A stretch of 64,000 nt of DNA from Daphnia pulex. Its lineage: Eukaryota > Arthropoda > Branchiopoda > Diplostraca > Daphniidae. Shown here piece by piece: positions 16,271 to 64,000 of this stretch. The notes beneath the pieces were generated by a model. That model saw only the letters and a program-made list of their open reading frames with translations, was not told the DNA's origin and made no database searches. The stretch is from the NCBI RefSeq assembly GCF_021134715.1, contig NC_060024.1, forward strand, positions 11,346,001 through 11,410,000, in the 5' to 3' direction. The first letter of the stretch is position 1. Each line of letters begins with the position of its first letter. The position numbers and the translations under genes were made by a program.

Positions 16271-17519
16271 ATGATGAATTATCCAGTTTGGCCGGATTCG
16301 GCCGGGGTGGCCGGTTACTCTCGGACATTGCTGGGCCAAGGTGGAGGCGGAATGCGGTCGTCGTTGGCTCCACCGCCACCTCCTCCGCCTGCAGCCGCCT
16401 CAAGTGCCGGGACTGCCGATGAAGGAGGCACCAACAAATGCAACCCGCCGAAATATAACGTCACCAACGGAGGAACGGACCCGACAACTATTCAACGCTC
16501 AGCCAATCACCATTCATCTTCTTCCGCAGCCGGCGGATCCTCGTCGTCCTCGGCGGCCCGTTTGAATAATGGAGACGATTGTGGCAGCAGTGGCGGCGGT
16601 GGTAGCGGCGGAGGAGCTCGAGGCCATCAGCTCCCCTCGGCGGACAAATACGCCCCGCTGTCTTCCTTTACCGACGACGACAGTCTCCTCAAGGTGAACT
16701 CGATTGGGAGTGGTCTTTTACACAGAAATACCTTTTTTTCTTCCATTTTAAATAAAATTAGAATCGAAATTACTGAGAAAAACACCCAACAAAAAAATAT
16801 AACTAACCACTCGCCTCGATTATGATTACCACCATCTGTAAATTATTCCGGAATAATCGGCAATGGAAAAAAAAAGAAAAGGAGAGTTGAGAACGAAACC
16901 TTCACTGGTTTGGGATTTCTAGGAATCCCCTCGGTTCAGGAAGGTCTAACACACACTGGGTATCTTGATGATTGCCGTATAGGGTAGATACTTTTTGTTT
17001 CCATCGAGGTAGAAAAACAAAAAGGAAAAACTCGTTTGTTCTGGGTATAGAAAAACAATCCCAGAATTTAAGAAATGACAATTTGTTAGAGACTCTCGTG
17101 ACATTTCTTTGTTGCTTCGTTTATTTCTATCTCGCGTGTAATCGGCTATTTTTTCCTAGAAATCGAACGCAGTTTATTTTTTCCTAGAATGAACCAGAAT
17201 TCCGCTTAAATAGTCAAGTCCACTGGTTTCACGTTAAAGAGTTAAAAAAAAAATTGACTGATTACCTTTCCGGTTTTGTTTGTTTTAAAGTGTGTAATTT
17301 AAAGTGGAAGTTTTACCTCCTCTTTTTGATTGATTGTGAAAAATAGTAAGAAAAATGGTAATTGAAATAATTTGATTCCGCACACAGGTGGCGACACATT
17401 TTCTCAGCGGTGGAAACGGCCAGGGTCGACACTACATGCCTATTGCCCGCGATTACTCAACATTGAGCTATTCCTCGGGCGTTTCCGTCAGTACAGCCGG
17501 CTCCTATTGTAATCCCGGC

Positions 17520-17560
<41 letters not shown>

Positions 17561-39584: not shown

Positions 39585-41345
39585 TGGTGGATGTAATAGT
39601 ATAGACTGAGTACATGTGCACAAACCGGGCTCTCCTCTGCTGCAGAGGGTATGCTCCGCACAAAAACAATATCTTTCATGAACCGGCTTGATTCAACTCC
39701 GGCTCGTTTTTCCTCCGAACTTCAATCCGTAAAATGAACCCGTATGGTAATTCTACGGCCAGAAGTCTTGAGAGAAGTTTATAATGTTCATTATACCGTG
39801 TCGGATAACGGTGAAATTGATTGAACAATGACCAATTGAAACATGTTGCAATTGGTTTTATTGTTCTTTTTTACGTAATTGTGAAATTGTGTCTTACTGA
39901 AAGCAATTGTAAATAACGCTGCATTTTAAAAATTAGATTTGTGTTTGAAAAATGCAAAGGGACCATGTGAAAAGTTTTCTCGTAACTAAAGATCTTCAAT
40001 GCGATTTCTTCTTTTTACTCTTTACCAGAATTGTTATAACTATCGTAGATTGATGGACGTAAACTTTTGAGTCTCTAGTCAAGGTTCAAATGTCGTCAAT
40101 GATTGCGAATTATGTTTCAAATGCCATGTCTGCTCGTTGACACTCCGTCCTTGCACATTGTAGTATCTCCTTTAATGCGCGATACATCAAATAAAATATG
40201 TTTTTTGTTGTGTTGAAATCTATTTTTAAAACTCTATATTTACTGCAGAAGAAGGGCTGTACAATTGAATACACTCTTCTCATTTCCATATTTTAGAAGG
40301 GCTAGGAGAAATAAAATCTTTTGGATGGGCCTTTGTGCTTGTTCGAATGCTAGAATCTGTATGTGTACCGTTGATCGATGCAACGTCCTTGTCGCTGTCG
40401 CCTAGCCAACCCCGACAGACTGTGGTATCCTTTGAATATTTCATCACCCGGGAAACATGGAAAAGTAAAAAAAAAAAATTTATGTCACAGACCTTTTTTA
40501 TTTTATTTTGTGGAATGGAGATAATCAAAATACCATAGTGAAGATTTTGTGTGCTACCAGCAGTAGTTTATTCTCTTATTGTGTGTGTTGTTGACACTCT
40601 TTGAATGTCAAGCAGCTGCCGTTGACGTCAATCGGGAATTGCAAACTGGTCTGCAATCTTGATAGCTAAATTTTACGATCACTTCCGTTCATCCTTATTG
40701 GTTGAATTTCCCATGATTCACAAGCGAGTGAAGCTGCTGCTGTTGTAAATAAAATATAATTCGATTCTTTTGCAGGAAATTTGGGTTACATTTTGGATAC
40801 AATTACTGCGTGAGCAGTGAGCTAGTAGTTTCAAGCCTGTATGATATCAAATTTATTTGTTATCTTTAAACTTTTTTGAAAAAATTTGGATCAGACTCAT
40901 GTGTGTCTACTCTATCTGGCAATCAACACAGTGTGATCCTAAATGAGGGGCTATTCATAAAATGTTACGTAGTACGTTTATAGGGTAGGGTGAGTTGGGG
41001 TCCGATCCCCAAATTAGGGGGGGGGGGTCTCAAAATTAATACGTAGTGTACAACTGTTTCCTCCGATTTTCCTAGTTGATGTTAACTGTGAACGAATTTA
41101 ATTTCTGAACATTGGATAGCCCCTGAACACCAAGGAATACTTGTATTGATTTGTTTGTTGATGTGAACTCTAACACATTCCTCAACCTAAATACAGAAGC
41201 AGCCAGATAGGCAGAAGCAGAAGTGATGATTCAACGCCCTTTTCCCAACGTGGAAAACTTTATTTATTGGTTTTCATGTAGCGTAAAACATTCAAGACTT
41301 TTTACAGTGATGAATAAGTTGCTTAAAAATTATGATTTGGTATGT
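39585..41345. other. intergenic between PPxY gene and first tRNA
   Basis: Mostly AT-rich. A likely polyadenylation signal for the PPxY gene lies near 40189 (AATAAA). A TGACGTCA site is at 40623-40630. A G-rich stretch at 40979-41030 contains a run of nine or ten G. No coding exon found. Confidence 0.4.
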
Positions 41346-41427
41346 GCAGTTGTGGCCGAGTGGTTAAGGCGATTGACTAGAAATCAATTCCTCTCTGAGG
41401 GCGTAGGTTCGAATCCTACCAACTGCG
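41346..41427 (+). tRNA. tRNA-Ser (anticodon AGA), copy 1
   Basis: 82 bases. The acceptor stem GCAGTTG pairs with CAACTGC and the discriminator base is G, as for serine. The D-arm contains TGGCCGAGTGGTTAAGGC, the anticodon loop reads CTAGAAA (anticodon AGA), a long variable arm follows as in class II tRNAs, and the T-arm is GTTCGAATC. The sequence is identical to the copy at 44664-44745. Internal A and B boxes are intact, and no intron is present. Confidence 0.97.
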
Positions 41428-41798
41428 AATCTTTTTTCATAATGATTCATTTCTCAAGATTAACAGAAGATTCTTGCTTTCAAAACCATTTAATAATTAA
41501 GTTCTCTATTAATGTAACACTTTTACTTAAATACCTTACAATCGAATGTTAGGATAGCGCTAGTCCGGTAGGTAGCTATAAAACTTAGGCTTCGAAGGAT
41601 TTCAAAATTATACATTTTCAATTGTTCATGTATCACTCAAACAGTAATTGGGTATATTAGAGAATTAGAGCCCTTAATATTTAATGCTGCCGACTGCCGA
41701 GTAAAACTTTATAAATAAGAATATTCGCCTATTCGGAAGCTGACGCAATAATTTTTGTATCGACTCAATTCCCGCCGGCAATGTTTTTGTTTGTATTA

Positions 41799-44663: not shown

Positions 44664-44745
44664 GCAGTTGTGGCCGAGTGGTTAAGGCGATTGACTAGAA
44701 ATCAATTCCTCTCTGAGGGCGTAGGTTCGAATCCTACCAACTGCG
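44664..44745 (+). tRNA. tRNA-Ser (anticodon AGA), copy 2
   Basis: All 82 bases match copy 1 at 41346-41427, including the acceptor stem, CTAGAAA anticodon loop, long variable arm and T-arm. Flanking sequences differ, so identity is limited to the gene itself, as expected under functional constraint or conversion. Confidence 0.97.
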
Positions 44746-45195: not shown

Positions 45196-46159
45196 GTTTT
45201 TCTATAAATTGATTTGTTAGCGATGTTAATCCCAATCTGATGATGATCCAGATGGAAATCAGCTACCAGGGAGGCGCAGTACGGGCATGACCAAATCACT
45301 GTATTCACTGAACAACCGTGTAACAAGAGTTCTTACTTCATAACGAATTGAAGTGAAATGTAGGATTTTCTATCTCAAGTGTTCTTCGTATCTCAAGATT
45401 GTTTTGTTTTTGCTTTGACATACCGTTCACTCGGGTCAACTTAATGCGAGCCGCTTGTGGCCTACTTCGCAGTCAATGAAGTAAGAGCGTGTACTCAGGT
45501 CACTACTCATGTATGTCACTACGTCAGTCCCCATCCCAATCTTCCCTTTTGCTTATTTCAATAAATTTTCTTTAACAGCTCTGAACAGCCAACATTCCAT
45601 TCCATACCAACAAGCCATAGAATTTGGATAAGAACAAACACTTTATAAATGTTACCATACGTTGGCAACGTTGATAACGTCAGGAAAATTGAGACGTTTG
45701 TTTACTTTATTAGACATTAATACTGTTTTTTATATAATAATTTTTTAAGTTCAACAAGAGTAAAATAGAAAAATGTTGTAATTAATTCGTTTTCAAGTTC
45801 TTTTAGCAGAGCAGCTTTTAGCAATATCTTAGTTTTCGTAGGTATTGTTGGCAACCTCGGTTTCGAGCCCTTTAACTAGGGCTCGCGTTGCAAGCGTTGG
45901 CCTTCGGCTAAGTCACAGAGCTATCTTGGAAGAATTCTGGAATTAGGCAGTGATGTGATGTGATGTGATAGGGGGTAGGTGCGTCTGCATAGATCCGGCG
46001 AAAATTCTATTAGTAGGCGAAAATTCTATTGCACCGTCAGGCTGATAGGGGCGCTCTGACGGCTGGGGTAAACGGCTTGAGCAGAATTGTTCCTCGCCAA
46101 CGACTGACGGGCAAAAATTTTAAAAATGGTAAATATGGTGACTTTGTAAAAATTAATGG

Positions 46160-47560
46160 TTTAACCTTACATCATAAATGCCATCGATTTTATTCAAAAC
46201 GTGTTCAAAACAAGACATAAAGAGATCAAAACGCTCTTGTTTTACTCTTTCAAATGCCTGTTGAGCTTTCTTGGTTTTGGCGCGAACCTTTTCAAACTCT
46301 GTGTTGGTCCATTGTAGCTTTTCTCCTGCCAAGTCAAATTTTTTCCACAGCCTAAAGATGAACATAACAAGAAGTTGATCACGGAAAAATGTAAGAAAAA
46401 ACAACGTACCCGCATATTAGGGGCTTTATTATGCTGAACTGTATGGCTCAACTCGTTCACGCGACGTTCTAGGAGATCACCTTCACGGCGTATTTCATCC
46501 GATACAAGAAGATTTTTATACTTGTCAGGTAGATTAGAATAGTCGACAACAATTCTAAATAAGATAAAAAACAAAGAGAATAAAGCGGAAATTACACCCG
46601 AATGTTGTGCAGGCAACTTACCTTTCTTCTCTCATATATCTCTTGAGAGTTTTGAGGAATGCTAACTGAATCGCTACCACTGGTTGTGACAGACTCGCTA
46701 TTCATACTTCCGGTAGCATATTACTATCTTGCCCAATGTCTTCCATGTTACCAAGCGACATCGGAATAACGATATCTTCCTTCTATTTGGGCAACAAAAA
46801 TAATTAAAGAAACTGAATAAGATCAATTAAAAGAAATTAAATGGTTACCTTTGATTTATTTAAAATGCTGTGCCTTTCACTTCTTTTTTTTCAATATTCG
46901 CTTCTAAACTAGTTATAGACTTCTGAATGTTCAGCAGGTCTTTTGTTACTGCTCCCATATCTTGTCGAGCCTTGATATTAAAAATACAAATAATGTTGTG
47001 ACATAACATTTTTTAATTAACAGACAGAACGGATTATACCAAGGCCATGCCTTCATTCATATTGTCTTCTTACTTTTCCAATATTTGCTTCTAAACTAGT
47101 TATAGACTTCTGAATGTTCAGCAGGTCTTTTGTTACTGCTCCCATATCTCGTCAAGCCTTGATATTAAGAATACAAATAATGTTGTGACATAACATTTTT
47201 AAATTAACAGACAGAACGGATTATACCAAGGCCATGCCTTCATCCATATTGTCTAGGTCGTTCTTTTGACACATTCACATCGATTTCATTTCTTCCACCT
47301 TCTTAATTTCTTTACCAATTTCACTCAATCGTTTTTCTTCTGCCTGTTTGGCTCTTTTTAATTCTCACAGACCTTTCCCACCGTTCCACAATGGCTGCAG
47401 AAAATACAGTCGAAATAGAATTTTAAGCCACTAAAAATTATTATTAAATCAATACCTTGTGTGTTGTTGTTTTCCAGTAAACTGTCCAGGTCTTTCCTGC
47501 TACTAGCATACCATTGAACTCCTTCCTCCTCAATGGGGTTTCAGCCATGCAAAGGAGGTT
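46160..47560 (-). pseudogene. Smc1: truncated, frame-broken partial copy of cohesin gene Smc1
   Basis: Minus-strand blocks match, in order, the second coiled coil and hinge-distal region of SMC1, the ATPase rod protein of cohesin. They are AKQAEEKRLSEIGKEIKKVE (near 47300-47360), DMGAVTKDLLNIQKSITSLE with RSERHSIL in another frame (near 46880-46970), EDIVIPMSLGNMEDIGQD (near 46740-46785), VDYSNLPDKYKNLL, NKAPNMR and AKKAQQAFERVKQERFDLF-like ERVKQERFDLFMSCFEHV (46160-46400). Intron-like gaps with GT..AG borders remain, so it arose from DNA, not from a processed transcript. Frames shift between blocks and a stop follows DSNMLPEV. The C-terminal ATP-binding head (signature motif, Walker B) is absent downstream of the donor at about 46169. 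It cannot make a working SMC1. One exon is tandemly duplicated. Confidence 0.8.
46893..47255. repeat. tandem duplication, 187-base unit, inside the Smc1 relic
   Basis: The unit beginning AATATTCGCTTCTAAACTAG (46893) recurs at 47080 as AATATTTGCTTCTAAACTAG. It spans one Smc1 exon plus its flanking intron up to CATATTGTC. The two copies differ at only a few bases, so the duplication is younger than the loss of function. Confidence 0.85.
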
Positions 47561-48194
47561 GAAAACTAGTCACAATAACAATGGTGTAAACAATAGGGCT
47601 TTCGAGGAAGTTCACAATTCGAGAATCCTTTCGATTCATGGTCTCTAGAGCAAATTTCGTAAAATTAGAATGAAAACTGCTTTATTATTACCAACTTACA
47701 ACATGAACACAACGCAGAGACAGTTACAATAATAACATAACAGTAACACCCCGAAGTCACAGTCGCAGTGTAGTGGTATACCACGTAATTCCATTTTCAG
47801 GTTTCGGCGAAGACTGAGAAGTCTGGGACCGTGGGTTGAAAATCGCGTTGCAGGGAGTATAGGCTTCACTGAATTTCCGATTTTATATCGATCGGTAAAT
47901 CGAGACGGGAGCCAATAGCAAGGCCAGATTTCGGTCACGTGGGGGTAGTTTTTCTCTCTAAGCTCCGCCTTTTCCCATTTCCTTCCAGGGAGACTTTTGA
48001 GCTCTACGGGAACCCTGTTAAGGCCCTCGGCAGGCTAAAGCCTTAGCCTCAGGGACTTGCTAGTTGCTTCTTGCTTGCATTCTGATCTGAAGACTCATTC
48101 GTCCACGTGTGTTCACTGTTGTTGATCCCCAGACTAACTATCCACCAGATTCAAATATTTTATCTAATTTATATACTATTTGGTGGATTTAGAA

Positions 48195-51171
48195 ATGTTT
48201 TATGATATTGACATTCTCAATCGTCGTGGTGGAAAGTTTGGTATAATTTGGCTCGCTGCTAACAAAAAATTGCGGCTTAAAGGAAAGGGCTCAAAGAATG
48301 ACTTGCGACTCTTGCTCCAAGTGCGAGTGGACCGGATTTGGTAGGAAGAAAGTTTCAGATTTAAAACTTTTTTTTCAGTCTTGACTTGAATTCATTCCCT
48401 GTTGGCAGTCAAGAAATTGTTCGATATGTAAGAACGATAAATCCAGGAACTGAAGGATCAAGCCCAAGGTTTTCCCTCTACCTCTCTGCTATGCTGACTC
48501 ATGGTGCCATTATTGCTCATCACAAACAAGTGTCCCATACTCTTGGTAAGCTTATTAACTTAAAAACTTGCAGTAATGATAAACATGTTACATTCTCTTG
48601 ATATTATTCCCCAGCTAATGTCAGGCTGACTTTTCAGCAAAGAGCGACAGAGAAGAAACTAAAAGAGTCCAATATCAGCTGTGATGTGTAAGTTGAACAG
48701 CATTTCAAGCAATTATTCATGTGTTTAATTCATTGTACGTAATTTTTCATCTAATCCAGACTAGACTTGTCTGACGCTGTGATTGGAGCTGGGAAATTCT
48801 TGTTGAGCGATGGTTGTAGTTTGGAGGATAGTGAGTTTGGGCGCTTGGTTGCTGTGGTTGATGCTCTCAAGATCCAGTCTATTTATCCTATTGCCAATGA
48901 AACTCGACAAGGTAGGCTGCTATATTGTTTTACAAATTCTTGATTTTATGTGTTGATTAATATATTTTATTATGAAGCCACACTTTGTGAAGTACAACTG
49001 AATTGCCCGGCATCTCCAGGTGAAATTGAAAGATTGTTTGCTGAAATGGAAGTACCCTCTGGGTTTCATGAATTTAATATGAACAGTTCTGGAATATATG
49101 TATCACCAAGTGAAATCACAATGAAAGAAACAGATGAACCCCTCTTGACTATTGCAGATTTGCCACCGGTATTTGATTTTTACCTCAAGCTGTCTATGTG
49201 CACTATGGTTTCTGATTCCATTTGTCTTTCTGTGTTCATGTCATGGTTAGATTGATGAAAGTTTTATTGGCGATGACAAGTTTGGGAGTGCATTTGGTAC
49301 TTTAGAAGTGCTATCCTCATGGAACGAAAGTAATGTTGAGGAGATACCAGTTCAAGGTATGAGAACTTTCTCATTATTAAATATGTGTTTGCCTTTTTTT
49401 ATGAAGATGTTACTTTTCAAACAGGTCCGTCTAATCTAAGACGTAGTAATTCAAAGCGAGTAATCCACGATGATAGTAATGCAGCTCAAGATGTTCCAAT
49501 CAAGCAAAGCCGCACTGAGCCAGCCGGGTATTGTTAACAATTTTCTCGTTTCGTGTATTGCCGCATTTGAAATAACCATTTATTTTATGTTCCATAGAGA
49601 AGAGGCTCCTACCACAATCACGGCCATGCAATCTCCTGATGTATGTAACTGTTATTGTATTTATCTGTGAAGTATGAAATAATCATGAACCACACAATTT
49701 AGATGGTATTGGAATCGCTTGACGTATTACCTGTACAACCCCGTGGAGGAGGACGGCGTCGATTGATTATTGATAAGGAAATTATCATCCCTGCTGAATT
49801 GTTCAGAGCTCAACTGTACGATTGTAAAGATTTGTTGCGGGTTAGTACTTATTATGATGGACGTTTTCGTTTAAATGTTTAAAAATGTATATTTTTGTTT
49901 CTTTAGATGCCGAATGAAGATGTGGTAAGGACTGAATATGCAGAGTGTACCGTTCACCACATATTCCGCCGTCCGTCAGTCGAAACACATCAAAATCCTT
50001 TGATTAGAGAGCTGATAACTAGGAACTTGGTGACTGTTGAAGAAGTCCAAACTGAGAATAGCGTAAATATCGTCAATCTGCCTTTTTCGATTTAAGATTT
50101 TTCTAATTATTTTCATTGATTGATTGTATTTATCAATTAGGATATGTTTAATGTAAACAACTACCTGGAGTCTTCCCAAATGAAAGTCAATGAGCCCAAC
50201 CACCAAGAGGATGGCCCAATGATAATCGCTGAGCCCAACCCCCCAGAGGATGCCCCAATGATAATCGCTGAGCCCAACCCCCCAGAGGATGACCCAATGA
50301 TAGTCGTTGAGCCCAACCACGAGGCTGCTCTGGCAATTGTTTTCGATGAGCCCGAGAGAGCTCGTAACCTGCAACCCAATGAAATTTCTATTGCACGTTC
50401 TGCAAACTTAAGCAACTTGACAGTCAGGTAACTGTTTTAACAATTGATATTTTTTAGTTTGGTCTTTACTGAGCCGACAAAATAAATTTCTGTAGTAATG
50501 TTTCGGGATATGCATCACCACGTCAAGCAGAAAAACATCTTCCTAATATGCAGTCTATCAAGGAGGTGGCATCCGAATCGACTGCATCAACTCAAAATAC
50601 TGGGTAAAAAACGTGAGATTACAGTTCATTAGATTTAGCGAAGCTCCAAACCAAATTCATTTTTACTCAAGGTTGTCGATCTGATTTTCAAATTGAAAAT
50701 TTTTCTAGAAACGTCGGTGATTTACCACCAGTCGGAGTGTCTGCCCGTGCAAATTTTGGAGCTTGCTCCCCTGTCAACAATCAACCTTCTCTTTCGACAT
50801 CTCAGCGAAATGACACATTCTCAGAAGTTAAAGTTCCTGAACCCCAGGCTTTATTGGACACGATTGATGAAATGGTATTTAATCCTGATTAACGCTATAC
50901 CATAATAAATTTTGACGAAATTTTTTTGTAGAGCGATCAAGTATCACGCCTTACTTTTCGTCAACTTGTTCCTCCGACGAAGTACAGCAAACTGGAAGCG
51001 GCTAAGATTTTCCAAACTTTGCTTGGTAATTGGAAAAATTTGATGTTTTGTGGGCTTAATGAATTAAACTATGTTGGATGTATTTTAGGATTGGCAAAGG
51101 ATCGCAGAATCTCCATGAGTCAGGACAAAAACAAGCCATTTTCTGACATTTTCATTACATTGGATCGCTAG
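48195..51171 (+). CDS. Rec8: REC8 meiotic cohesin kleisin (left copy)
   Basis: The kleisin that closes the meiotic cohesin ring on SMC1/SMC3 and is cut by separase. Fifteen exons: 48195-48340, 48379-48545, 48615-48687, 48760-48911, 48978-49168, 49251-49356, 49425-49527, 49598-49640, 49703-49840, 49907-50062, 50141-50427, 50496-50603, 50709-50874, 50932-51025 and 51089-51171. All are in frame; 670 aa. The N-terminal kleisin domain MFYDIDILNRRGGKFGIIWL and PRFSLYLSAMLTHGAIIAHH are closer to REC8 than to RAD21. The C-terminal winged helix (SRLTFRQLVPPTKYSKLEAA, FQTLLGLAKDRR) would bind the SMC1 head. The middle is disordered, with a 13-residue acidic repeat (EPNPPEDAPMIIA-like units from residues 443, 456, 469 and 482) and a possible separase-type EPER at 495-498. 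Length exceeds human REC8 (547). No break seen. The upstream 250 bases lack an obvious TATA box. Confidence 0.94.
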
Positions 51172-51762
51172 GACCATAGCGATAACGGCTATCTTAATGT
51201 TTTTAACAAAAGTTTTCCCCTTATTTCTTGTTGACGACAAGTCATTAGTTTTAAAACCCCATTTTATTTTTATGAACAGTTTTATTTCAAAGAGACGTAC
51301 AATCGTAAAAGAGGAAAAAGATTTTTTTATCACAAGTTCTTTTTTTTTTTATAGAAGGAACTAATTCTATGAAATAGCAGAACATTTCCAGATTCTTAAA
51401 AGATATTTTCTGATACCAATTACTTTTGAAGTGTTTTAAGATAATGTTTTATGAAAGTAATACAAATGTCTTCAGGCACGAAGTGTGTCAACATGGAATA
51501 TTTTGAATTGTTGACATGCCTTTCTGTTACTTAAGTTCTCAGAAAAGGTTTCAAACTTCTCATTATTATTGTCTATCACCAAAGTTGGCAAACATGCAGC
51601 TGTTGTGAGACAGGATAGTGTGGAAAGGTCTTTTTCATCTTCACCTTTTGCGATTGACTTAACAGTTAACATTTGCAGTTACCTCGTAGAAAACCAAAAT
51701 GAATAGAAAAATATTCTGAACAACAGGCAGGTTTATCTTACCAACACGTATTTTTTTATCAG

Positions 51763-53471
51763 CAATCCACTGTCCAAGTGCTGTTGCTCGGGTGCTAAAA
51801 CGGGTGAATCACTTACAGATGCCATAAACGAATGTCAAAAAGAGCTCTTCCTTCTCCTCACTGTAGAAGTTGGACTGACGTCCATTATCACCTTGGGGAT
51901 TTCGTCTCTTGTTTTGTGTGGTGCTGCGGTGGTGGCTTTTTTGGTGAAGACGAGATACAAATTTGGAGGGGAGAATATTACGTGAGTATCAAATATATTT
52001 GCCTTTGTTTGTTGGATCTTTCAATTAAGTGTTAACTGATAACGAGCTAGAGCGGATATTGCTTTTAAGTTTTATGTTTCTTTTAAACGTTTCTTCTTTC
52101 TGACGCTGCATAGCCTTTGATCATTTTCCACCATAATAAGAAGCATCAGTTTAGTTACGTTTATGCAGTCCACTGTAAGAAGCATCAGTTTAGTTACGTT
52201 TACTTTGCACATCTCTGAAGAAATTTCTCGCTTCCACTATAACGAAATTTTGGGTGATAACTGCCAGTTTCTGTTTCAGCAACAAAGCTCACTTGTTAGA
52301 TTTTGAATAATGTGTTTTTTTTTCTACTTCCGGTTTTCTCATTTCTGTCAGTAGTTTAGTAAATATTCATCTGAGGCACAAAAGAACCACATATTCGTGA
52401 TCCTCGTCAAATTTGTGGTAAAGTTCATGTTTTTTTTTGTACGTACGCGTACTTCCGGTTTCGAGAATTATCCTGAACTATATAGTTCAGGAAAAATCTC
52501 GATTTTGGCCAAATTCTGGATTTCCTTTAAACTACACCTAATCGACCCCAAATTTCACGTAGATCACGAATTTCTGGTTTATCTTGTCGACAGCTCAATG
52601 GTTAAGGAGCTATCGCTTACTTCCGGTATACTTCCGGAAAATTTGCATGAAACTAACAAGTGAGCTTTGTTCTCTGTAGAATTCTAAAGATTCCATGCTA
52701 AGCATTTCGCAAAGAGTAATGGTCTTTTTGATTACTTTTATGACTTGTGACTATTTAAGGCCAGTCCTTTAGATATTGAGTTTTGAACGTGACAAATAGA
52801 TGGCGCGAAAAAATGTTGTTTGTTGTGTCACATATGGGCTAATGGCGGTTCGTTGTCAAAAGTTCAGCTACAGCTATCTTCTTCGAAAATTACCAATGAA
52901 TTCGTTGGTAAATTGACTATATTTCCTGTGCAATTTGTTTGGCATGTGTTCTTTACCGAATATGTGTATAATAACATCATTATTTCTACTCCATTTCCAG
53001 GAAAAAATGTGAAAGGTGCATGAAGCCAGTACCGTCAACTATTGTGTTAAAAATCCTGGTATCCTACAGAATATGTCATCCAAATGACAGAGTGGTAACA
53101 ACCAATGCTAGCTTTAGTAAAGTATTGCTGGAACATAGTCTTCTCATCTTTTATTAGGATTCATCACTATTATCGGCTGAATCATTCTATGGGACTTGCC
53201 AGATCGCCAACCCAAGCATGGACCAATTTCTCATTCCATCTTCTAGAGAACCTTACATAACCGATTGGTGGTTTAGCGTGTAAGTTTACTTGTCATGTCG
53301 CTGAACTTATTTTGTTGCAGTCTTATATGTATTTAAAGTATTGTTCTGCACTTAAGTCTATCTAATTTTTAAGTTTAATTATTCTTTTAGATCATAGACA
53401 TCAAGCACATTGATGCCACAAATGATAGACAAGGTTACTTTATTTTTTATTTACAGGTTTTAGGTTTCTAA
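51763..53471 (+). CDS. partial single-span membrane protein gene (left copy)
   Basis: Three or four exons downstream of REC8 on the same strand: 51763-51981 (NPLSKCCCSGAKTGESLTDA, then a membrane span GLTSIITLGISSLVLCGAAV), 53001-53094 (KKCERCMKPVPSTIVLKILV) and 53158-about 53276 (SAESFYGTCQIANPSMDQFL, then ITDWWFS). A possible last exon from about 53394 (IIDIKHIDATNDRQG) ends at TAA 53471. The first two joins are in frame with good borders (AC|GTGAGT). No upstream exon or start codon is convincing, so the 5' end is missing or the gene is a fragment. The span plus a short Arg/Lys-containing stop-transfer (VKTRYK) resembles the end of a receptor or tetraspanin-like protein, but no family is recognised. 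The first intron hosts a transposon-like element. Confidence 0.42.
52138..52202. repeat. 26-base direct repeat, two copies (left arm)
   Basis: AAGAAGCATCAGTTTAGTTA... occurs at 52138-52163 and again at 52177-52202, separated by 13 bases. The mirror copy is in the right arm near 59941-60005. Confidence 0.8.
52281..52671. mobile_element. ~391-base non-autonomous DNA element with inverted ends (left copy)
   Basis: Ends are inverted copies of about 19 bases (AACAAAGCTCACTTGTTAG at 52281 and its reverse complement ending at 52671). The interior carries several CTTCCGG motifs and an internal palindrome (CCTGAACTATATAGTTCAGG). It has no coding capacity, and sits in the first visible intron of the membrane-protein gene. 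Its size, inverted ends and non-coding interior suggest a MITE. Target-site duplications are not clear, so no superfamily is assigned. Confidence 0.7.
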
Positions 53472-54364
53472 TGTAGCATGGTAGACTTTATGAGAAGTCA
53501 TGTTGTTTGAAGAAAAAGGACTATACAGTCGACAAGGTTCTTTGCTAACCTGTTGGCTGCTACCCTTGAATCTCCCTGTTTACTTCCTTACACTGGTCCT
53601 CTTGATTAAGGGTACTGCTTTCTGTTGCTACAACCTTGTTTGAATATTATCCAAATAAATGTTCATTTTGCTTACAGGGTAATCCTTCGCTACTGATCAT
53701 ACACCCACTTGTGAAAACCGACGAGAGAATGCTGTAATTCAAGACTGATACATTGTGTAGTTGTTAGATAAATGACAAGTGCATATCTGGGCTCCCTTCT
53801 TTTCTGTGGCCCCGTTTCCCTAACTAACCACTAACCAACGCCCGCCGGTGGTCACTCACCCGCTGTGAAACCAGGAGGAGGGGAGGGCTCTGGTCGAACG
53901 GGGACTTGGAAGGCGCATGATCCGATGAAAACTTTTGGAGGGTCATGAGTCTAACCCGGAAGCCTAGTATGACTACATCTCCCCGGAAAAACTTGCCTCG
54001 TACTTCTCTCTTCTTCTCGGTCCAGATACTTATCTCTGGGGGCCGTAGACATGTCCTATAACAGCATGTGCGATTTAAACAATGCAACCCACTACCCAAT
54101 GAAACAAATAGCCATGGTTTATGTTTTGTGGAAATCTCCGTCAGTCAAGTTACAAAGACGATGCAGATTTCCGCAAAACTAAAACATCGCTTTTTGTCTC
54201 ATTGCCGCAGCGGTGGTGGCGGGTTGCGTTTAAACTCGTGCAGAAGAAAATCGTGTTGAACCGGACGCTCTGTTTATTGAATTTTTTGAACATTTTAAAA
54301 AGAAAATAAAAATTACTTCATGTAGTGTATTTTTTTATTTATTACAGATGTTTCATGGTTAAGG

Positions 54365-54520
54365 TTTAACATTGGTTTATAGGGTTGAGGGTATAGATTT
54401 AAGGGTTGGTATGGTAGGTTGGTATGGTAGGTTTTCGGGGTTTGAAGGATTGGAAGGTATATGTTTGTGGGGTTTGGAGATTAATTGGTAGGGATACATT
54501 TGTAGGGTTATAGATTAACT
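54365..54520. repeat. degenerate GGTTGGTATGGTA-type low-complexity tract (left arm)
   Basis: Strand-biased G/T-rich tract of short irregular repeats (GGTTGGTATGGTAGG and similar). This is where the two arms differ in length: the left has an extra partial unit, a typical slippage change. Confidence 0.7.
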
Positions 54521-55219
54521 GAATTTTTATCCAAACTTGAAATATCCTCCAACATCCACCACTTTCCCTTCCCAACCCCCAAAACATGTTTATTATTTGA
54601 TTGACATAAACATCCCATATTTGTTTTTGTTGCTTCTGAACTTATAAACGGTAAACTGCAATAGTCACGATGACAATTTAACAAAATATGATGCAACTTC
54701 GGTAACACAACATCAGCACCAAGGAACGGTCAATTGAACTTGATGTAGAAAGATCTTTCACCAGCATAGGCTTCAACAACGTGCCACATCGGACAGCAAC
54801 TACGCGAACATAAAACACTCAACCTGCTATAACCAAAATGAAGTGAATTAATCTAGATGAATAAATGTCACTTTACGTTATTTACAAGAGTTAAAGCCCT
54901 CAGCTGGCTGCATCAAATCCATATGTACGTTGGGCAGCAACAAAGAAGCTCATACTTTTACCAGACTGATAATCCTATTTATAAAAAAAAAAAACTCAAT
55001 TACTATCAACTATCAAGGAAAAAATGTCTTAAATTACAAAAACAAAAATTACAGAAGTCAAAGTAAACTATGCAAACACAATCCTTCAGAATAAAAGTTG
55101 CAAAAGAACCTACAGCTAGCATACATTTACAAGGTAGGCAACTGAAAATTCTACAACAAATAAGTTAGGAGATAGTCACCGACTAACTAAGTCTGTAGTC
55201 TCACAGTTAGTTGAACATA

Positions 55220-55880
55220 TTTACCTGAATAGTTCTGAAGTGTTTCTTAAAAAATGTACAGCCGGTACAGAAAAAAGAGGAATTTATCCTTGGCATGGTT
55301 GTCCAATTTCAAAGAGCTCAATTTCACCTACATGAGGGAAGAAAATAGTTACTTATAACAGGAAATCAAATGCGGTTTTTTTTTCTTCTTTTCAGACCTG
55401 GAGTGTTACAATTCTGGCTCGGGCATCACTCAATGAGGGGAAAGAATTGAGGTAATCACTAGTTGTGATTGTGATGGGTAAATGATTGTCAATCTTTTCG
55501 TTGTTATCCAACTCTTACGGCACTCTGTGCAGAACTCTACAAACAAATAATGGTTAAAGCTTTATTAAAATATCTATTATACTACAGGGTTCTCACTTTT
55601 CAATGCTTGGCAATGTCTCTCAATAGTAAGTGGTGTCAAGTGAAGAAAGTTGGGGATCTTCATCAACTCTGCATTGGCAAATTTACTGGGTGGTGTTGCC
55701 CCCGGAACAACCCAGCCCTGATGCAAGGGCAGCAGGACACTAGCTGGATGGAAAGACCTGGCAACTGGCCTGACTGAGGGCCAGTCATACACTTTTAGAA
55801 TTTCTTCATTTTTGCGAAAGGATGTGGGATAATTAGAAATGGGACTCGTTGACACAAACTGCTGAGTGAGATTACGGAAA
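55220..55880 (-). pseudogene. mRpS35: mitochondrial ribosomal protein S35 pseudogene (left copy)
   Basis: The exon at about 55870-55600 encodes YDWPSVRPVARSFHPASVLL and ELMKIPNFLHLTPLTIERHC, clearly mRpS35 (small-subunit protein of the mitochondrial ribosome). A second exon (about 55518-55400) encodes LDNNEKIDNHLPITITTSDY and SDARARIVTLQ, but out of frame with its own start (KFCTE). A third (about 55327) gives VKLSSLKLDNHAKDKF and then degenerates. There is also a frame change near the N-terminus (PRVFRNLTQQ lacks an in-frame ATG). Remaining intron borders are recognisable, so it is a DNA-level copy. Expected to be non-functional; the working gene must lie elsewhere. Confidence 0.75.
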
Positions 55881-55973
55881 ACACGAGGTTGACAATTGCA
55901 GACATTTTATTTGACTGTTTTTTAGCAGACTAAAATACAAGAATCGCGCCATCTATGATTCACATTTACAACT

Positions 55974-56178
55974 GCGGCGGATTAAAAGTACCCGACAGTA
56001 GAACTCCATAATGCCCGACAGTAGAACTCCAATTTAAAAAATTGTTGGAGTTCTATTGTCGCGTAGTTCTACTGTCGGAAAAAGAACTCCGATTTTAAAA
56101 ATTATCTATTGTCGCGTAGTGGAGTTCAACTGTCGGGCATTGGAGTTCTATTGTCGGGTACTTTTAATCCGCCGCAGT
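55974..56178. repeat. fold-back repeat cluster at the palindrome axis
   Basis: The motif CCGACAGTAGAACTCC or its complement (GGAGTTCTATTGTCGGG) occurs about six times within 205 bases: twice in one orientation on the left, then several times in the other. The outermost sequences (GCGGCGGATTAAAAGTACCC and its complement) are part of the arms. True arm symmetry ends near 56032 and resumes near 56115, leaving a spacer of about 82 bases that itself contains copies of the motif. Confidence 0.85.
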
Positions 56179-56268
56179 TGTAAATGTGAATCATAGATGG
56201 CGCGATTCTTGTATTTTAGTCTGCTAAAAAACAGTCAAATAAAATGTCTGCAATTGTCAACCTCGTGT

Positions 56269-56929
56269 TTTCCGTAATCTCACTCAGCAGTTTGTGTCAA
56301 CGAGTCCCATTTCTAATTATCCCACATCCTTTCGCAAAAATGAAGAAATTCTAAAAGTGTATGACTGGCCCTCAGTCAGGCCAGTTGCCAGGTCTTTCCA
56401 TCCAGCTAGTGTCCTGCTGCCCTTGCATCAGGGCTGGGTTGTTCCGGGGGCAACACCACCCAGTAAATTTGCCAATGCAGAGTTGATGAAGATCCCCAAC
56501 TTTCTTCACTTGACACCACTTACTATTGAGAGACATTGCCAAGCATTGAAAAGTGAGAACCCTGTAGTATAATAGATATTTTAATAAAGCTTTAACCATT
56601 ATTTGTTTGTAGAGTTCTGCACAGAGTGCCGTAAGAGTTGGATAACAACGAAAAGATTGACAATCATTTACCCATCACAATCACAACTAGTGATTACCTC
56701 AATTCTTTCCCCTCATTGAGTGATGCCCGAGCCAGAATTGTAACACTCCAGGTCTGAAAAGAAGAAAAAAAAACCGCATTTGATTTCCTGTTATAAGTAA
56801 CTATTTTCTTCCCTCATGTAGGTGAAATTGAGCTCTTTGAAATTGGACAACCATGCCAAGGATAAATTCCTCTTTTTTCTGTACCGGCTGTACATTTTTT
56901 AAGAAACACTTCAGAACTATTCAGGTAAA
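56269..56929 (+). pseudogene. mRpS35: mitochondrial ribosomal protein S35 pseudogene (right copy)
   Basis: Mirror of the left copy. It shows the same recognisable stretches (ELMKIPNFLHLTPLTIERHC, SDARARIVTLQ) and the same frame problems in the same places. The gene copy was therefore already broken before the arms became two. Confidence 0.75.
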
Positions 56930-58671
56930 TATGTTCAACTAACTGTGAGACTACAGACTTAGTTAGTCGGTGACTATCTCCTAACTTATTTGTTGTAGAA
57001 TTTTCAGTTGCCTACCTTGTAAATGTATGCTAGCTGTAGGTTCTTTTGCAACTTTTATTCTGAAGGATTGTGTTTGCATAGTTTACTTTGACTTCTGTAA
57101 TTTTTGTTTTTGTAATTTAAGACATTTTTTCCTTGATAGTTGATAGTAATTGAGTTTTTTTTTTTTATAAATAGGATTATCAGTCTGGTAAAAGTATGAG
57201 CTTCTTTGTTGCTGCCCAACGTACATATGGATTTGATGCAGCCAGCTGAGGGCTTTAACTCTTGTAAATAACGTAAAGTGACATTTATTCATCTAGATTA
57301 ATTCACTTCATTTTGGTTATAGCAGGTTGAGTGTTTTATGTTCGCGTAGTTGCTGTCCGATGTGGCACGTTGTTGAAGCCTATGCTGGTGAAAGATCTTT
57401 CTACATCAAGTTCAATTGACCGTTCCTTGGTACTGATGTTGTGTTACCGAAGTTGCATCATATTTTGTTAAATTGTCATCGTGACTATTGCAGTTTACCG
57501 TTTATAAGTTCAGAAGCAACAAAAACAAATATGGGATGTTTATGTCAATCAAATAATAAACATGTTTTGGGGGTTGGGAAGGGAAAGTGGTGGATGTTGG
57601 AGGATATTTCAAGTTTGGATAAAAATTCAGTTAATCTATAACCCTACAAATGTATCCCTACCAATTAATCTCCAAACCCCACAAACATATACCTTCCAAT
57701 CCTTCAAACCCCGAAAACATACACCTACCATACCAACCCTTAAATCTATACCCTCAACCCTATAAACCAATGTTAAACCTTAACCATGAAACATCTGTAA
57801 TAAATAAAAAAAATACACTACATGAAGTAATTTTTATTTTCTTTTTAAAATGTTCAAAAAATTCAATAAACAGAGCGTCCGGTTCAACACGATTTTCTTC
57901 TGCACGAGTTTAAACGCAACCCGCCACCACCGCTGCGGCAATGAGACAAAAAGCGATGTTTTAGTTTTGCGGAAATCTGCATCGTCTTTGTAACTTGACT
58001 GACGGAGATTTCCACAAAACATAAACCATGGCTATTTGTTTCATTGGGTAGTGGGTTGCATTGTTTAAATCGCACATGCTGTTATAGGACATGTCTACGG
58101 CCCCCAGAGATAAGTATCTGGACCGAGAAGAAGAGAGAAGTACGAGGCAAGTTTTTCCGGGGAGATGTAGTCATACTAGGCTTCCGGGTTAGACTCATGA
58201 CCCTCCAAAAGTTTTCATCGGATCATGCGCCTTCCAAGTCCCCGTTCGACCAGAGCCCTCCCCTCCTCCTGGTTTCACAGCGGGTGAGTGACCACCGGCG
58301 GGCGTTGGTTAGTGGTTAGTTAGGGAAACGGGGCCACAGAAAAGAAGGGAGCCCAGATATGCACTTGTCATTTATCTAACAACTACACAATGTATCAGTC
58401 TTGAATTACAGCATTCTCTCGTCGGTTTTCACAAGTGGGTGTATGATCAGTAGCGAAGGATTACCCTGTAAGCAAAATGAACATTTATTTGGATAATATT
58501 CAAACAAGGTTGTAGCAACAGAAAGCAGTACCCTTAATCAAGAGGACCAGTGTAAGGAAGTAAACAGGGAGATTCAAGGGTAGCAGCCAACAGGTTAGCA
58601 AAGAACCTTGTCGACTGTATAGTCCTTTTTCTTCAAACAACATGACTTCTCATAAAGTCTACCATGCTACA

Positions 58672-60380
58672 TTAGAAACCTAAAACCTGTAAATAAAAAA
58701 TAAAGTAACCTTGTCTATCATTTGTGGCATCAATGTGCTTGATGTCTATGATCTAAAAGAATAATTAAACTTAAAAATTAGATAGACTTAAGTGCAGAAC
58801 AATACTTTAAATACATATAAGACTGCAACAAAATAAGTTCAGCGACATGACAAGTAAACTTACACGCTAAACCACCAATCGGTTATGTAAGGTTCTCTAG
58901 AAGATGGAATGAGAAATTGGTCCATGCTTGGGTTGGCGATCTGGCAAGTCCCATAGAATGATTCAGCCGATAATAGTGATGAATCCTAATAAAAGATGAG
59001 AAGACTATGTTCCAGCAATACTTTACTAAAGCTAGCATTGGTTGTTACCACTCTGTCATTTGGATGACATATTCTGTAGGATACCAGGATTTTTAACACA
59101 ATAGTTGACGGTACTGGCTTCATGCACCTTTCACATTTTTTCCTGGAAATGGAGTAGAAATAATGATGTTATTATACACATATTCGGTAAAGAACACATG
59201 CCAAACAAATTGCACAGGAAATATAGTCAATTTACCAACGAATTCATTGGTAATTTTCGAAGAAGATAGCTGTAGCTGAACTTTTGACAACGAACCGCCA
59301 TTAGCCCATATGTGACACAACAAACAACATTTTTTCGCGCCATCTATTTGTCACGTTCAAAACTCAATATCTAAAGGACTGGCCTTAAATAGTCACAAGT
59401 CATAAAAGTAATCAAAAAGACCATTACTCTTTGCGAAATGCTTAGCATGGAATCTTTAGAATTCTACAGAGAACAAAGCTCACTTGTTAGTTTCATGCAA
59501 ATTTTCCGGAAGTATACCGGAAGTAAGCGATAGCTCCTTAACCATTGAGCTGTCGACAAGATAAACCAGAAATTCGTGATCTACGTGAAATTTGGGGTCG
59601 ATTAGGTGTAGTTTAAAGGAAATCCAGAATTTGGCCAAAATCGAGATTTTTCCTGAACTATATAGTTCAGGATAATTCTCGAAACCGGAAGTACGCGTAC
59701 GTACAAAAAAAAACATGAACTTTACCACAAATTTGACGAGGATCACGAATATGTGGTTCTTTTGTGCCTCAGATGAATATTTACTAAACTACTGACAGAA
59801 ATGAGAAAACCGGAAGTAGAAAAAAAAACACATTATTCAAAATCTAACAAGTGAGCTTTGTTGCTGAAACAGAAACTGGCAGTTATCACCCAAAATTTCG
59901 TTATAGTGGAAGCGAGAAATTTCTTCAGAGATGTGCAAAGTAAACGTAACTAAACTGATGCTTCTTACAGTGGACTGCATAAACGTAACTAAACTGATGC
60001 TTCTTATTATGGTGGAAAATGATCAAAGGCTATGCAGCGTCAGAAAGAAGAAACGTTTAAAAGAAACATAAAACTTAAAAGCAATATCCGCTCTAGCTCG
60101 TTATCAGTTAACACTTAATTGAAAGATCCAACAAACAAAGGCAAATATATTTGATACTCACGTAATATTCTCCCCTCCAAATTTGTATCTCGTCTTCACC
60201 AAAAAAGCCACCACCGCAGCACCACACAAAACAAGAGACGAAATCCCCAAGGTGATAATGGACGTCAGTCCAACTTCTACAGTGAGGAGAAGGAAGAGCT
60301 CTTTTTGACATTCGTTTATGGCATCTGTAAGTGATTCACCCGTTTTAGCACCCGAGCAACAGCACTTGGACAGTGGATTG
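58672..60380 (-). CDS. partial single-span membrane protein gene (right copy)
   Basis: Mirror of 51763-53471, with the same exons, borders and membrane span (GLTSIITLGISSLVLCGAAV) and the same lack of a convincing 5' end. It follows the right REC8 copy on the same strand. Confidence 0.42.
59472..59862. mobile_element. ~391-base non-autonomous DNA element (right copy)
   Basis: Mirror of 52281-52671, with identical inverted ends (AACAAAGCTCACTTGTTAG). Its presence at the same place in both arms means it inserted before the duplication. Confidence 0.7.
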
Positions 60381-60971
60381 CTGATAAAAAAATACGTGTT
60401 GGTAAGATAAACCTGCCTGTTGTTCAGAATATTTTTCTATTCATTTTGGTTTTCTACGAGGTAACTGCAAATGTTAACTGTTAAGTCAATCGCAAAAGGT
60501 GAAGATGAAAAAGACCTTTCCACACTATCCTGTCTCACAACAGCTGCATGTTTGCCAACTTTGGTGATAGACAATAATAATGAGAAGTTTGAAACCTTTT
60601 CTGAGAACTTAAGTAACAGAAAGGCATGTCAACAATTCAAAATATTCCATGTTGACACACTTCGTGCCTGAAGACATTTGTATTACTTTCATAAAACATT
60701 ATCTTAAAACACTTCAAAAGTAATTGGTATCAGAAAATATCTTTTAAGAATCTGGAAATGTTCTGCTATTTCATAGAATTAGTTCCTTCTATAAAAAAAA
60801 AAAGAACTTGTGATAAAAAAATCTTTTTCCTCTTTTACGATTGTACGTCTCTTTGAAATAAAACTGTTCATAAAAATAAAATGGGGTTTTAAAACTAATG
60901 ACTTGTCGTCAACAAGAAATAAGGGGAAAACTTTTGTTAAAAACATTAAGATAGCCGTTATCGCTATGGTC

Positions 60972-63948
60972 CTAGCGATCCAATGTAATGAAAATGTCAG
61001 AAAATGGCTTGTTTTTGTCCTGACTCATGGAGATTCTGCGATCCTTTGCCAATCCTAAAATACATCCAACATAGTTTAATTCATTAAGCCCACAAAACAT
61101 CAAATTTTTCCAATTACCAAGCAAAGTTTGGAAAATCTTAGCCGCTTCCAGTTTGCTGTACTTCGTCGGAGGAACAAGTTGACGAAAAGTAAGGCGTGAT
61201 ACTTGATCGCTCTACAAAAAAATTTCGTCAAAATTTATTATGGTATAGCGTTAATCAGGATTAAATACCATTTCATCAATCGTGTCCAATAAAGCCTGGG
61301 GTTCAGGAACTTTAACTTCTGAGAATGTGTCATTTCGCTGAGATGTCGAAAGAGAAGGTTGATTGTTGACAGGGGAGCAAGCTCCAAAATTTGCACGGGC
61401 AGACACTCCGACTGGTGGTAAATCACCGACGTTTCTAGAAAAATTTTCAATTTGAAAATCAGATCGACAACCTTGAGTAAAAATGAATTTGGTTTGGAGC
61501 TTCGCTAAATCTAATGAACTGTAATCTCACGTTTTTTACCCAGTATTTTGAGTTGATGCAGTCGATTCGGATGCCACCTCCTTGATAGACTGCATATTAG
61601 GAAGATGTTTTTCTGCTTGACGTGGTGATGCATATCCCGAAACATTACTACAGAAATTTATTTTGTCGGCTCAGTAAAGACCAAACTAAAAAATATCAAT
61701 TGTTAAAACAGTTACCTGACTGTCAAGTTGCTTAAGTTTGCAGAACGTGCAATAGAAATTTCATTGGGTTGCAGGTTACGAGCTCTCTCGGGCTCATCGA
61801 AAACAATTGCCAGAGCAGCCTCGTGGTTGGGCTCAACGACTATCATTGGGTCATCCTCTGGGGGGTTGGGCTCAGCGATTATCATTGGGGCATCCTCTGG
61901 GGGGTTGGGCTCAGCGATTATCATTGGGCCATCCTCTTGGTGGTTGGGCTCATTGACTTTCATTTGGGAAGACTCCAGGTAGTTGTTTACATTAAACATA
62001 TCCTAATTGATAAATACAATCAATCAATGAAAATAATTAGAAAAATCTTAAATCGAAAAAGGCAGATTGACGATATTTACGCTATTCTCAGTTTGGACTT
62101 CTTCAACAGTCACCAAGTTCCTAGTTATCAGCTCTCTAATCAAAGGATTTTGATGTGTTTCGACTGACGGACGGCGGAATATGTGGTGAACGGTACACTC
62201 TGCATATTCAGTCCTTACCACATCTTCATTCGGCATCTAAAGAAACAAAAATATACATTTTTAAACATTTAAACGAAAACGTCCATCATAATAAGTACTA
62301 ACCCGCAACAAATCTTTACAATCGTACAGTTGAGCTCTGAACAATTCAGCAGGGATGATAATTTCCTTATCAATAATCAATCGACGCCGTCCTCCTCCAC
62401 GGGGTTGTACAGGTAATACGTCAAGCGATTCCAATACCATCTAAATTGTGTGGTTCATGATTATTTCATACTTCACAGATAAATACAATAACAGTTACAT
62501 ACATCAGGAGATTGCATGGCCGTGATTGTGGTAGGAGCCTCTTCTCTATGGAACATAAAATAAATGGTTATTTCAAATGCGGCAATACACGAAACGAGAA
62601 AATTGTTAACAATACCCGGCTGGCTCAGTGCGGCTTTGCTTGATTGGAACATCTTGAGCTGCATTACTATCATCGTGGATTACTCGCTTTGAATTACTAC
62701 GTCTTAGATTAGACGGACCTGTTTGAAAAGTAACATCTTCATAAAAAAAGGCAAACACATATTTAATAATGAGAAAGTTCTCATACCTTGAACTGGTATC
62801 TCCTCAACATTACTTTCGTTCCATGAGGATAGCACTTCTAAAGTACCAAATGCACTCCCAAACTTGTCATCGCCAATAAAACTTTCATCAATCTAACCAT
62901 GACATGAACACAGAAAGACAAATGGAATCAGAAACCATAGTGCACATAGACAGCTTGAGGTAAAAATCAAATACCGGTGGCAAATCTGCAATAGTCAAGA
63001 GGGGTTCATCTGTTTCTTTCATTGTGATTTCACTTGGTGATACATATATTCCAGAACTGTTCATATTAAATTCATGAAACCCAGAGGGTACTTCCATTTC
63101 AGCAAACAATCTTTCAATTTCACCTGGAGATGCCGGGCAATTCAGTTGTACTTCACAAAGTGTGGCTTCATAATAAAATATATTAATCAACACATAAAAT
63201 CAAGAATTTGTAAAACAATATAGCAGCCTACCTTGTCGAGTTTCATTGGCAATAGGATAAATAGACTGGATCTTGAGAGCATCAACCACAGCAACCAAGC
63301 GCCCAAACTCACTATCCTCCAAACTACAACCATCGCTCAACAAGAATTTCCCAGCTCCAATCACAGCGTCAGACAAGTCTAGTCTGGATTAGATGAAAAA
63401 TTACGTACAATGAATTAAACACATGAATAATTGCTTGAAATGCTGTTCAACTTACACATCACAGCTGATATTGGACTCTTTTAGTTTCTTCTCTGTCGCT
63501 CTTTGCTGAAAAGTCAGCCTGACATTAGCTGGGGAATAATATCAAGAGAATGTAACATGTTTATCATTACTGCAAGTTTTTAAGTTAATAAGCTTACCAA
63601 GAGTATGGGACACTTGTTTGTGATGAGCAATAATGGCACCATGAGTCAGCATAGCAGAGAGGTAGAGGGAAAACCTTGGGCTTGATCCTTCAGTTCCTGG
63701 ATTTATCGTTCTTACATATCGAACAATTTCTTGACTGCCAACAGGGAATGAATTCAAGTCAAGACTGAAAAAAAAGTTTTAAATCTGAAACTTTCTTCCT
63801 ACCAAATCCGGTCCACTCGCACTTGGAGCAAGAGTCGCAAGTCATTCTTTGAGCCCTTTCCTTTAAGCCGCAATTTTTTGTTAGCAGCGAGCCAAATTAT
63901 ACCAAACTTTCCACCACGACGATTGAGAATGTCAGTATCATAAAACAT
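60972..63948 (-). CDS. Rec8: REC8 meiotic cohesin kleisin (right copy)
   Basis: Complete mirror of the left REC8 gene. The start codon at 63948 (MFYDIDILNRRGG) lies only 52 bases from the window end, and the stop is at 60972. All 15 exons, splice borders, the acidic 13-residue repeat and the C-terminal winged helix are present, and the frames I compared are identical. Both copies therefore appear able to make the same 670-residue protein. Its promoter lies mostly outside the window, so whether the two copies share upstream regulatory sequence cannot be judged here. Confidence 0.94.
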
Positions 63949-64000
63949 TTCTAAATCCACCAAATAGTATATAAATTAGATAAAATATTTGAATCTGGTG

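Follow-up and report, generated by a model that had tools for sequence, protein, structure and literature searches.

Three copies of REC8 have been reported in the genome of the water flea Daphnia pulex, and two of them, REC8B and REC8C, lie in inverted orientation, are >98% identical including their introns, have 15 exons and encode 671 amino acids (aa) (PMC2680839). The same paper describes REC8B and REC8C as head-to-head and ~12 kb apart, reports expression of all three copies by reverse transcription-PCR (RT-PCR) in ovaries and males and not in female soma, and describes nine scattered SMC1 fragments of 50 to 306 aa. A transposon insertion at REC8 has been linked to obligate asexuality in D. 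pulex by earlier work that is described in PMC9175491. In yeast lacking Sae2 or the Mre11 nuclease, inverted duplications arise by fold-back where natural inverted repeats of 3 to 15 bp occur, and a hairpin-capped chromosome has been proposed as a model (PMC10622511). Here we describe a palindrome with two REC8-like genes in a 64,000-nucleotide (nt) stretch of D. pulex DNA (RefSeq assembly GCF_021134715.1, contig NC_060024.1, positions 11,346,001 to 11,410,000 of the forward strand). This whole stretch is the window, and positions are counted from its first nucleotide. The locus most likely represents a kind of REC8 duplication that has been described before in water fleas (PMC2680839). We consider it, with a probability of roughly two in three, to be a true inverted duplication in the genome, in which the doubled segment carries REC8 together with a broken mS35-like gene; on this reading it was seeded by a hairpin and is either young or maintained by gene conversion.

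Results

Comparison of the whole window with its own reverse complement by blastn gave a single long minus-strand match, which covered 48143-64000; the remaining four minus-strand matches, of 105 bp each, reflect a tandem repeat within REC8. The match stops at 64000 with the end of the window, as the partner of 48142 would be 64001; the outer ends of the palindrome therefore lie outside view, and the lengths of 7848 bp for the left arm and 7842 bp for the right arm are both minimum values. Leaving the axis aside, five differences separate the arms over ~7.85 kb (99.9% identical DNA). Two of these are plain substitutions (48208/63935, T/C; 54717/57432, C/T), and the others are a homopolymer change of one T at 54329, a 7-bp repeat unit at 54420-54426 and a G/T difference at 54430 inside a short tandem repeat. 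The longest uninterrupted identical tract is ~6.12 kb, from 48208 to 54329, where a formula for chance gives an expected inverted match of ~16 bp in 64 kb. The locus is therefore a large, near-identical palindromic gene duplication, with multi-kb inverted arms on one sequence that are >99% identical around a short (168-bp) center. An earlier note on this DNA had proposed such a palindrome with two intact REC8 genes, and the self-comparison, the arm comparison and our exon models bear it out. The near-identity that it gave to arms of at least 7.9 kb stands, at the lengths measured above; its ~82-base spacer is actually the poorly paired middle of the 168-bp element at 55991-56158.

Each arm contains a gene for a REC8-like kleisin, whose exon boundaries we set manually at GT-AG sites. 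The intact 15-exon gene that had been claimed for each arm was recovered as a spliced model in both cases, given that both frames are open for 660 codons plus a stop and the two products differ at a single residue (I5T). All 14 introns in both copies are GT...AG and measure 57 to 105 nt, which can be compared with genome-wide D. pulex medians of 63 and 77 (PMC5427498). The genes converge, tail-to-tail, with 9.8 kb between their stop codons. Both kleisin end domains of Pfam were found in the protein above the curated cut-off (Rad21_Rec8_N, PF04825, 1.4e-07; Rad21_Rec8, PF04824, 4.3e-06), and a PDB search with the protein returned four weak matches, all RAD21-derived chains, with a best E value of 0.34. 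The kleisin also carries what we take to be a REC8 motif. We tentatively call it REC8-like, rather than RAD21, on the basis of that motif and of the exon count that PMC2680839 gives for Daphnia REC8. A REC8 pattern scan of prokaryote genome contigs gave 15 pattern matches, 0 of them confirmed, and a scan of viral contigs gave 0 relatives. The plain outcome of the duplication is one additional REC8 copy, with a full protein predicted from each arm; the altered REC8 dose that the earlier note suggested may follow from it. The 39-nt repeat in exon 11 preserves the frame and may vary in length among isolates. The GC content of the window is 39.6%, and that of Daphnia obtusa is 40.9% (PMC12926508).

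At the axis lies an element with the terminal inverted repeats of a miniature inverted-repeat transposable element (MITE), CCCGACARTAGAACTCC, and with further internal repeats of the same motif. TA flanks both of its ends, as a target-site duplication would, but mirror-image flanks would show TA anyway. Folded as single-stranded DNA, the segment 55989-56160 (the element plus two flanking bases per side) pairs almost end to end at -51.9 kcal/mol, and 0 of 200 shuffled versions were as stable (-14.5 +/- 2.6 kcal/mol). In a folding scan of 172-nt segments with a step of 20 over 1-55900, 0 of 2787 segments reached the stability of the axis (mean, -14.5; standard deviation, 4.9); the runner-up, in a GC-rich part at 17861, reached -43.3, and near the locus the most stable fold (-39.5) was that at 54061, within the left arm. 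The first mismatch between the two halves, at 55998/56151, is 7 bp inside the edge of the element. The outermost 40 bp of the element hold three differences (55998/56151; 56008-56009, 2 bp; 56023), compared to five in the 7.85 kb of arm, which places an older asymmetry of the element within nearly identical arms. The element is single-copy in the window, where the next best match, at 2593-2608, covers 16 bases with 2 mismatches, and no inverted pair of at least 14 nt was found around that partial match in 2400-2800. Scans of viral contigs and prokaryote genome contigs with axis patterns gave 0 relatives, and the available text of a Daphnia transposon paper held no match to the element. A sequencing adapter was set aside as an identity for the axis, which is a repeat-rich hairpin element in which no adapter was noticed by eye. 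A second short element-like stretch occupies 52281-52671, with 22-nt inverted ends (95%) that are 347 bp apart and with inner inverted repeats, and it is mirrored in the right arm.

Between REC8 and the axis, each arm holds an mS35-like gene that is directed away from the axis (phmmer E value, 1.2e-19; 5.6e-43 once the pieces were joined). The same frame break is present in both arms, which are identical there. A normal mS35 gene was ruled out, given that the frame shifts between FCTE and ELDNN and no intron of usual size was found to explain the shift. The shared break either predates the duplication, or was spread by conversion, or is a consensus error common to both arms. If the gene is essential, a functional mS35 copy must be elsewhere. 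The coordinates of these features are given in Table 1.

Table 1. Positions of the palindrome, its genes and its neighbor in the window.
Feature	Position	Strand	Basis or remark
Left arm	48143..55990	+	Inner end at axis element; reaches at least to 48143
Right arm	56159..64000	-	Inverted copy; continues beyond window edge
MITE-like element, 168 bp, terminal inverted repeats CCCGACARTAGAACTCC, TA either side	55991..56158	.	Folds into a single long hairpin
REC8-like kleisin, 15 exons, 660 aa, intact, codon 5 = Ile	48195..51171	+	Exon model; Pfam
Second REC8-like gene, 15 exons, 660 aa, intact, codon 5 = Thr	60972..63948	-	Exon model
39-nt (13-residue) tandem repeat, REC8 exon 11, 3.3 copies	50191..50320	+	
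mS35 (MRPS35)-like gene, partial, frame broken near 55515-55522	55280..55906	-	phmmer; ends read by hand
Mirror mS35-like copy, frame break near 56627-56634	56243..56869	+	Arm identity; open reading frame 56243-56572
SMC1 gene fragment, residues 1030-1098 of full-length SMC1A	46029..46416	-	Flanks palindrome, left of the left arm

The SMC1 fragment matched an SMC1A construct with an E value of 1.7e-15 and a 1233-residue chain with 1.4e-14, and weaker SMC1 pieces were assigned by eye upstream to ~47540. An exon-sized unit of 187 bp, present in two tandem copies (95% identical) at 46880-47254, adjoins it. No SMC ATPase motif was detected in the window by a six-frame pattern search, from which an intron could conceal one. 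Two tRNA-Ser (AGA) genes with the same orientation, at 41345-41428 and 44664-44745, are 94% identical over 103 bp, and a diverged (79%) repeat pair lies near the second of them (44410-44567/44917-45075). Rfam (at the gathering threshold) and tRNA scans of the window gave nothing besides these two genes. A probable C2H2 zinc-finger gene occupies 17376-19570, with fingers at 18722-19570 and a CAG/glutamine run at 17520-17587.

Discussion

The axis is the most stable hairpin scanned, and the join between the arms is near its tip, which suggests fold-back at a hairpin as the origin of the palindrome. We hypothesize that one strand had its end at the outer tip of the axis element and turned back on itself, so that its terminal repeat would pair with the opposite terminal repeat of the element. 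The paired end would then be extended by copying of the adjoining arm, and replication of the hairpin-capped product would give the order of arm, element and inverted arm. Several points weigh against this reading. Hairpins as such are not rare, given that 1-55990 contains 15 inverted pairs of at least 18 nt within 400 bp, and three of the 15 have arms of at least 22 nt and lie inside the left arm (52281-52671). A stricter control (at least 26 nt within 600 bp) gave one AT-rich pair and was too strict to be fair; because the counts depend on strictness in this way (1 versus 15 pairs), we used the folding scan as the main hairpin control. The element could instead have been inserted later at the exact central TA of an older palindrome without a spacer (...AAAAG-TA-CTTTT...), but an insertion at the very center needs an additional coincidence. 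Fold-back in vitro at the same hairpin would give an identical appearance, and the palindrome is known here from the sequence of a single assembly. Lastly, REC8B and REC8C were described as head-to-head at ~12 kb, whereas the genes here are tail-to-tail at 9.8 kb, although the wording of that paper may be loose (PMC2680839).

We considered that the palindrome could be an artifact of assembly or library preparation in which one real arm is shown twice, either because the axis hairpin gave rise to a fold-back chimera or because two haplotypes were joined head-on. Long reads obtained after whole-genome amplification are known to contain artificial palindromes (PMC6218980), published lists of palindromes may include misassemblies (PMC7953838), and from its folding energy the axis hairpin would be expected to prime fold-back in vitro as well. 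An artifact would also be consistent with just two plain substitutions between the arms and with an mS35 frame break that is common to both. However, a combination of substitutions, homopolymer and repeat changes is hard to derive from a self-copied molecule, even though read errors or a mixing of alleles could yield it, and two near-identical REC8 copies in inverted orientation had already been described in an earlier D. pulex assembly (PMC2680839). That earlier report makes a misassembly less likely, and our finding less surprising, and we regard an artifact as unlikely. The disagreement in orientation with the same paper keeps the risk lowered rather than removed.

A genomic palindrome of this size and uniformity could be of recent origin or could be maintained by conversion, and both options, as the earlier note had also held, remain live. 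An older palindrome with arms kept alike by continuing arm-to-arm gene conversion, as in the primate Y chromosome, is a possibility that we hold tentatively, at somewhat less than even odds. It overlaps with the reading that we favor, and our confidence in recent origin and in conversion overlaps as well, given that the two are not exclusive. In D. obtusa, the rate of allelic conversion (2.62e-5) exceeds that of base mutation (2.23e-9) by a factor of about ten thousand (PMC12926508), but this conversion rate is for alleles and not for the arms of a palindrome. The differences between the arms are also bunched, with four of the five within 389 bp beside a clean tract of 6.1 kb (P = 0.002 if uniform). 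Little weight can be given to this bunching, since three of those four fall in slippage-prone repeats, and the two plain substitutions on their own are patternless. In addition, the sequence is that of one isolate, from which ancestral differences shared among isolates cannot be read. From the two substitutions, an age of ~14,000 to 55,000 generations would be obtained at Daphnia mutation rates of 9e-9 to 2.3e-9, with 95% limits of ~1,700 to 200,000. We rejected dating by arm divergence, given that conversion would void the estimate; with allelic conversion in D. obtusa far outpacing base mutation (PMC12926508), the similarity of the arms cannot date the event.

The convergent arrangement of the two genes raises the question of an effect through RNA. 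Read-through across the axis could make the locus a source of REC8 double-stranded RNA (dsRNA) or antisense RNA, which would lower REC8 activity and tilt reproduction to asexuality. The genes converge on near-perfect inverted arms, and on the coding strand no AATAAA or ATTAAA occurs for 2.48 kb past the REC8 stop, the first being at 53654; six such signals are nevertheless present from 53654 to the axis, counting these two forms only. A PIWI-interacting RNA (piRNA) silencing model has been put forward for REC8 paralogues in D. pulex (PMC9175491), but it concerns a transposon insertion and not a palindrome. Both REC8 frames are intact, which would not be needed for silencing alone, and we consider this explanation very unlikely. 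A still more speculative extension, to which we give the least weight of all, is a natural hairpin-RNA locus at which dsRNA would lower all ovarian REC8 copies, arm identity would be selected for target match, and the MITE fold-back would be linked to parthenogenesis.

To what the earlier note had recognized, our analysis adds the element with hairpin potential on which the axis falls, a broken mS35-like gene in each arm, the adjoining SMC1 fragment and the D. pulex precedent (PMC2680839). Judged by titles and the openings of abstracts, we found no description of this palindrome in the literature beyond PMC2680839, although a 2012 paper by Eads on REC8 and asexuality could contain one; in the available part of a D. 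magna meiosis paper, Rec8 is named only in the reference list. If the REC8 pair of PMC2680839 is the one seen here, its palindromic copies can convert each other, variant calls that assign short reads to REC8B versus REC8C are ambiguous, and a hairpin element would be able to seed a gene duplication. The locus would also let recent origin be separated from arm-to-arm conversion through a comparison of isolates.

Near-identical, gene-bearing arms with possible gene conversion are shared with the primate Y-chromosome palindromes (cited within PMC7953838), which are sex-linked, whereas there is no evidence of sex linkage for this palindrome. The parthenogenetic animals Adineta vaga and Folsomia candida also have palindromes, in which gene blocks are duplicated in inverse orientation on a single chromosome. 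Those are described as gene-level collinear blocks, with wide-ranging synonymous divergence in F. candida, compared to 99.9% DNA identity and a hairpin element at the axis here. F. candida, with a GC content of 37.5%, was also weighed as a source of this DNA and was set aside, given that Daphnia accounts jointly for the 15-exon REC8 pair and the SMC1 fragment. As in the fold-back duplications of yeast (PMC10622511), the inverted duplication is centered on a natural inverted repeat; the yeast events were obtained mainly in repair-defective cells and involve dicentric chromosomes, whereas this is an animal locus with its outer ends outside view. The closest likeness is to REC8B and REC8C. Given that orientation and spacing disagree with PMC2680839, we do not assert full equivalence, and there are two further differences: the protein is 671 aa there and 660 aa here, and the axis element and the mS35-like copies are unmentioned in the available text of that paper. 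In both cases, however, the genes have 15 exons and similar length and are inverted, near-identical including introns, and roughly 10 kb apart, and for REC8B and REC8C repetitive DNA was reported between the copies and SMC1 fragments are dispersed in the genome (PMC2680839). The identity of >98% with introns included holds for our pair as well, and the two pairs are most likely equivalent.
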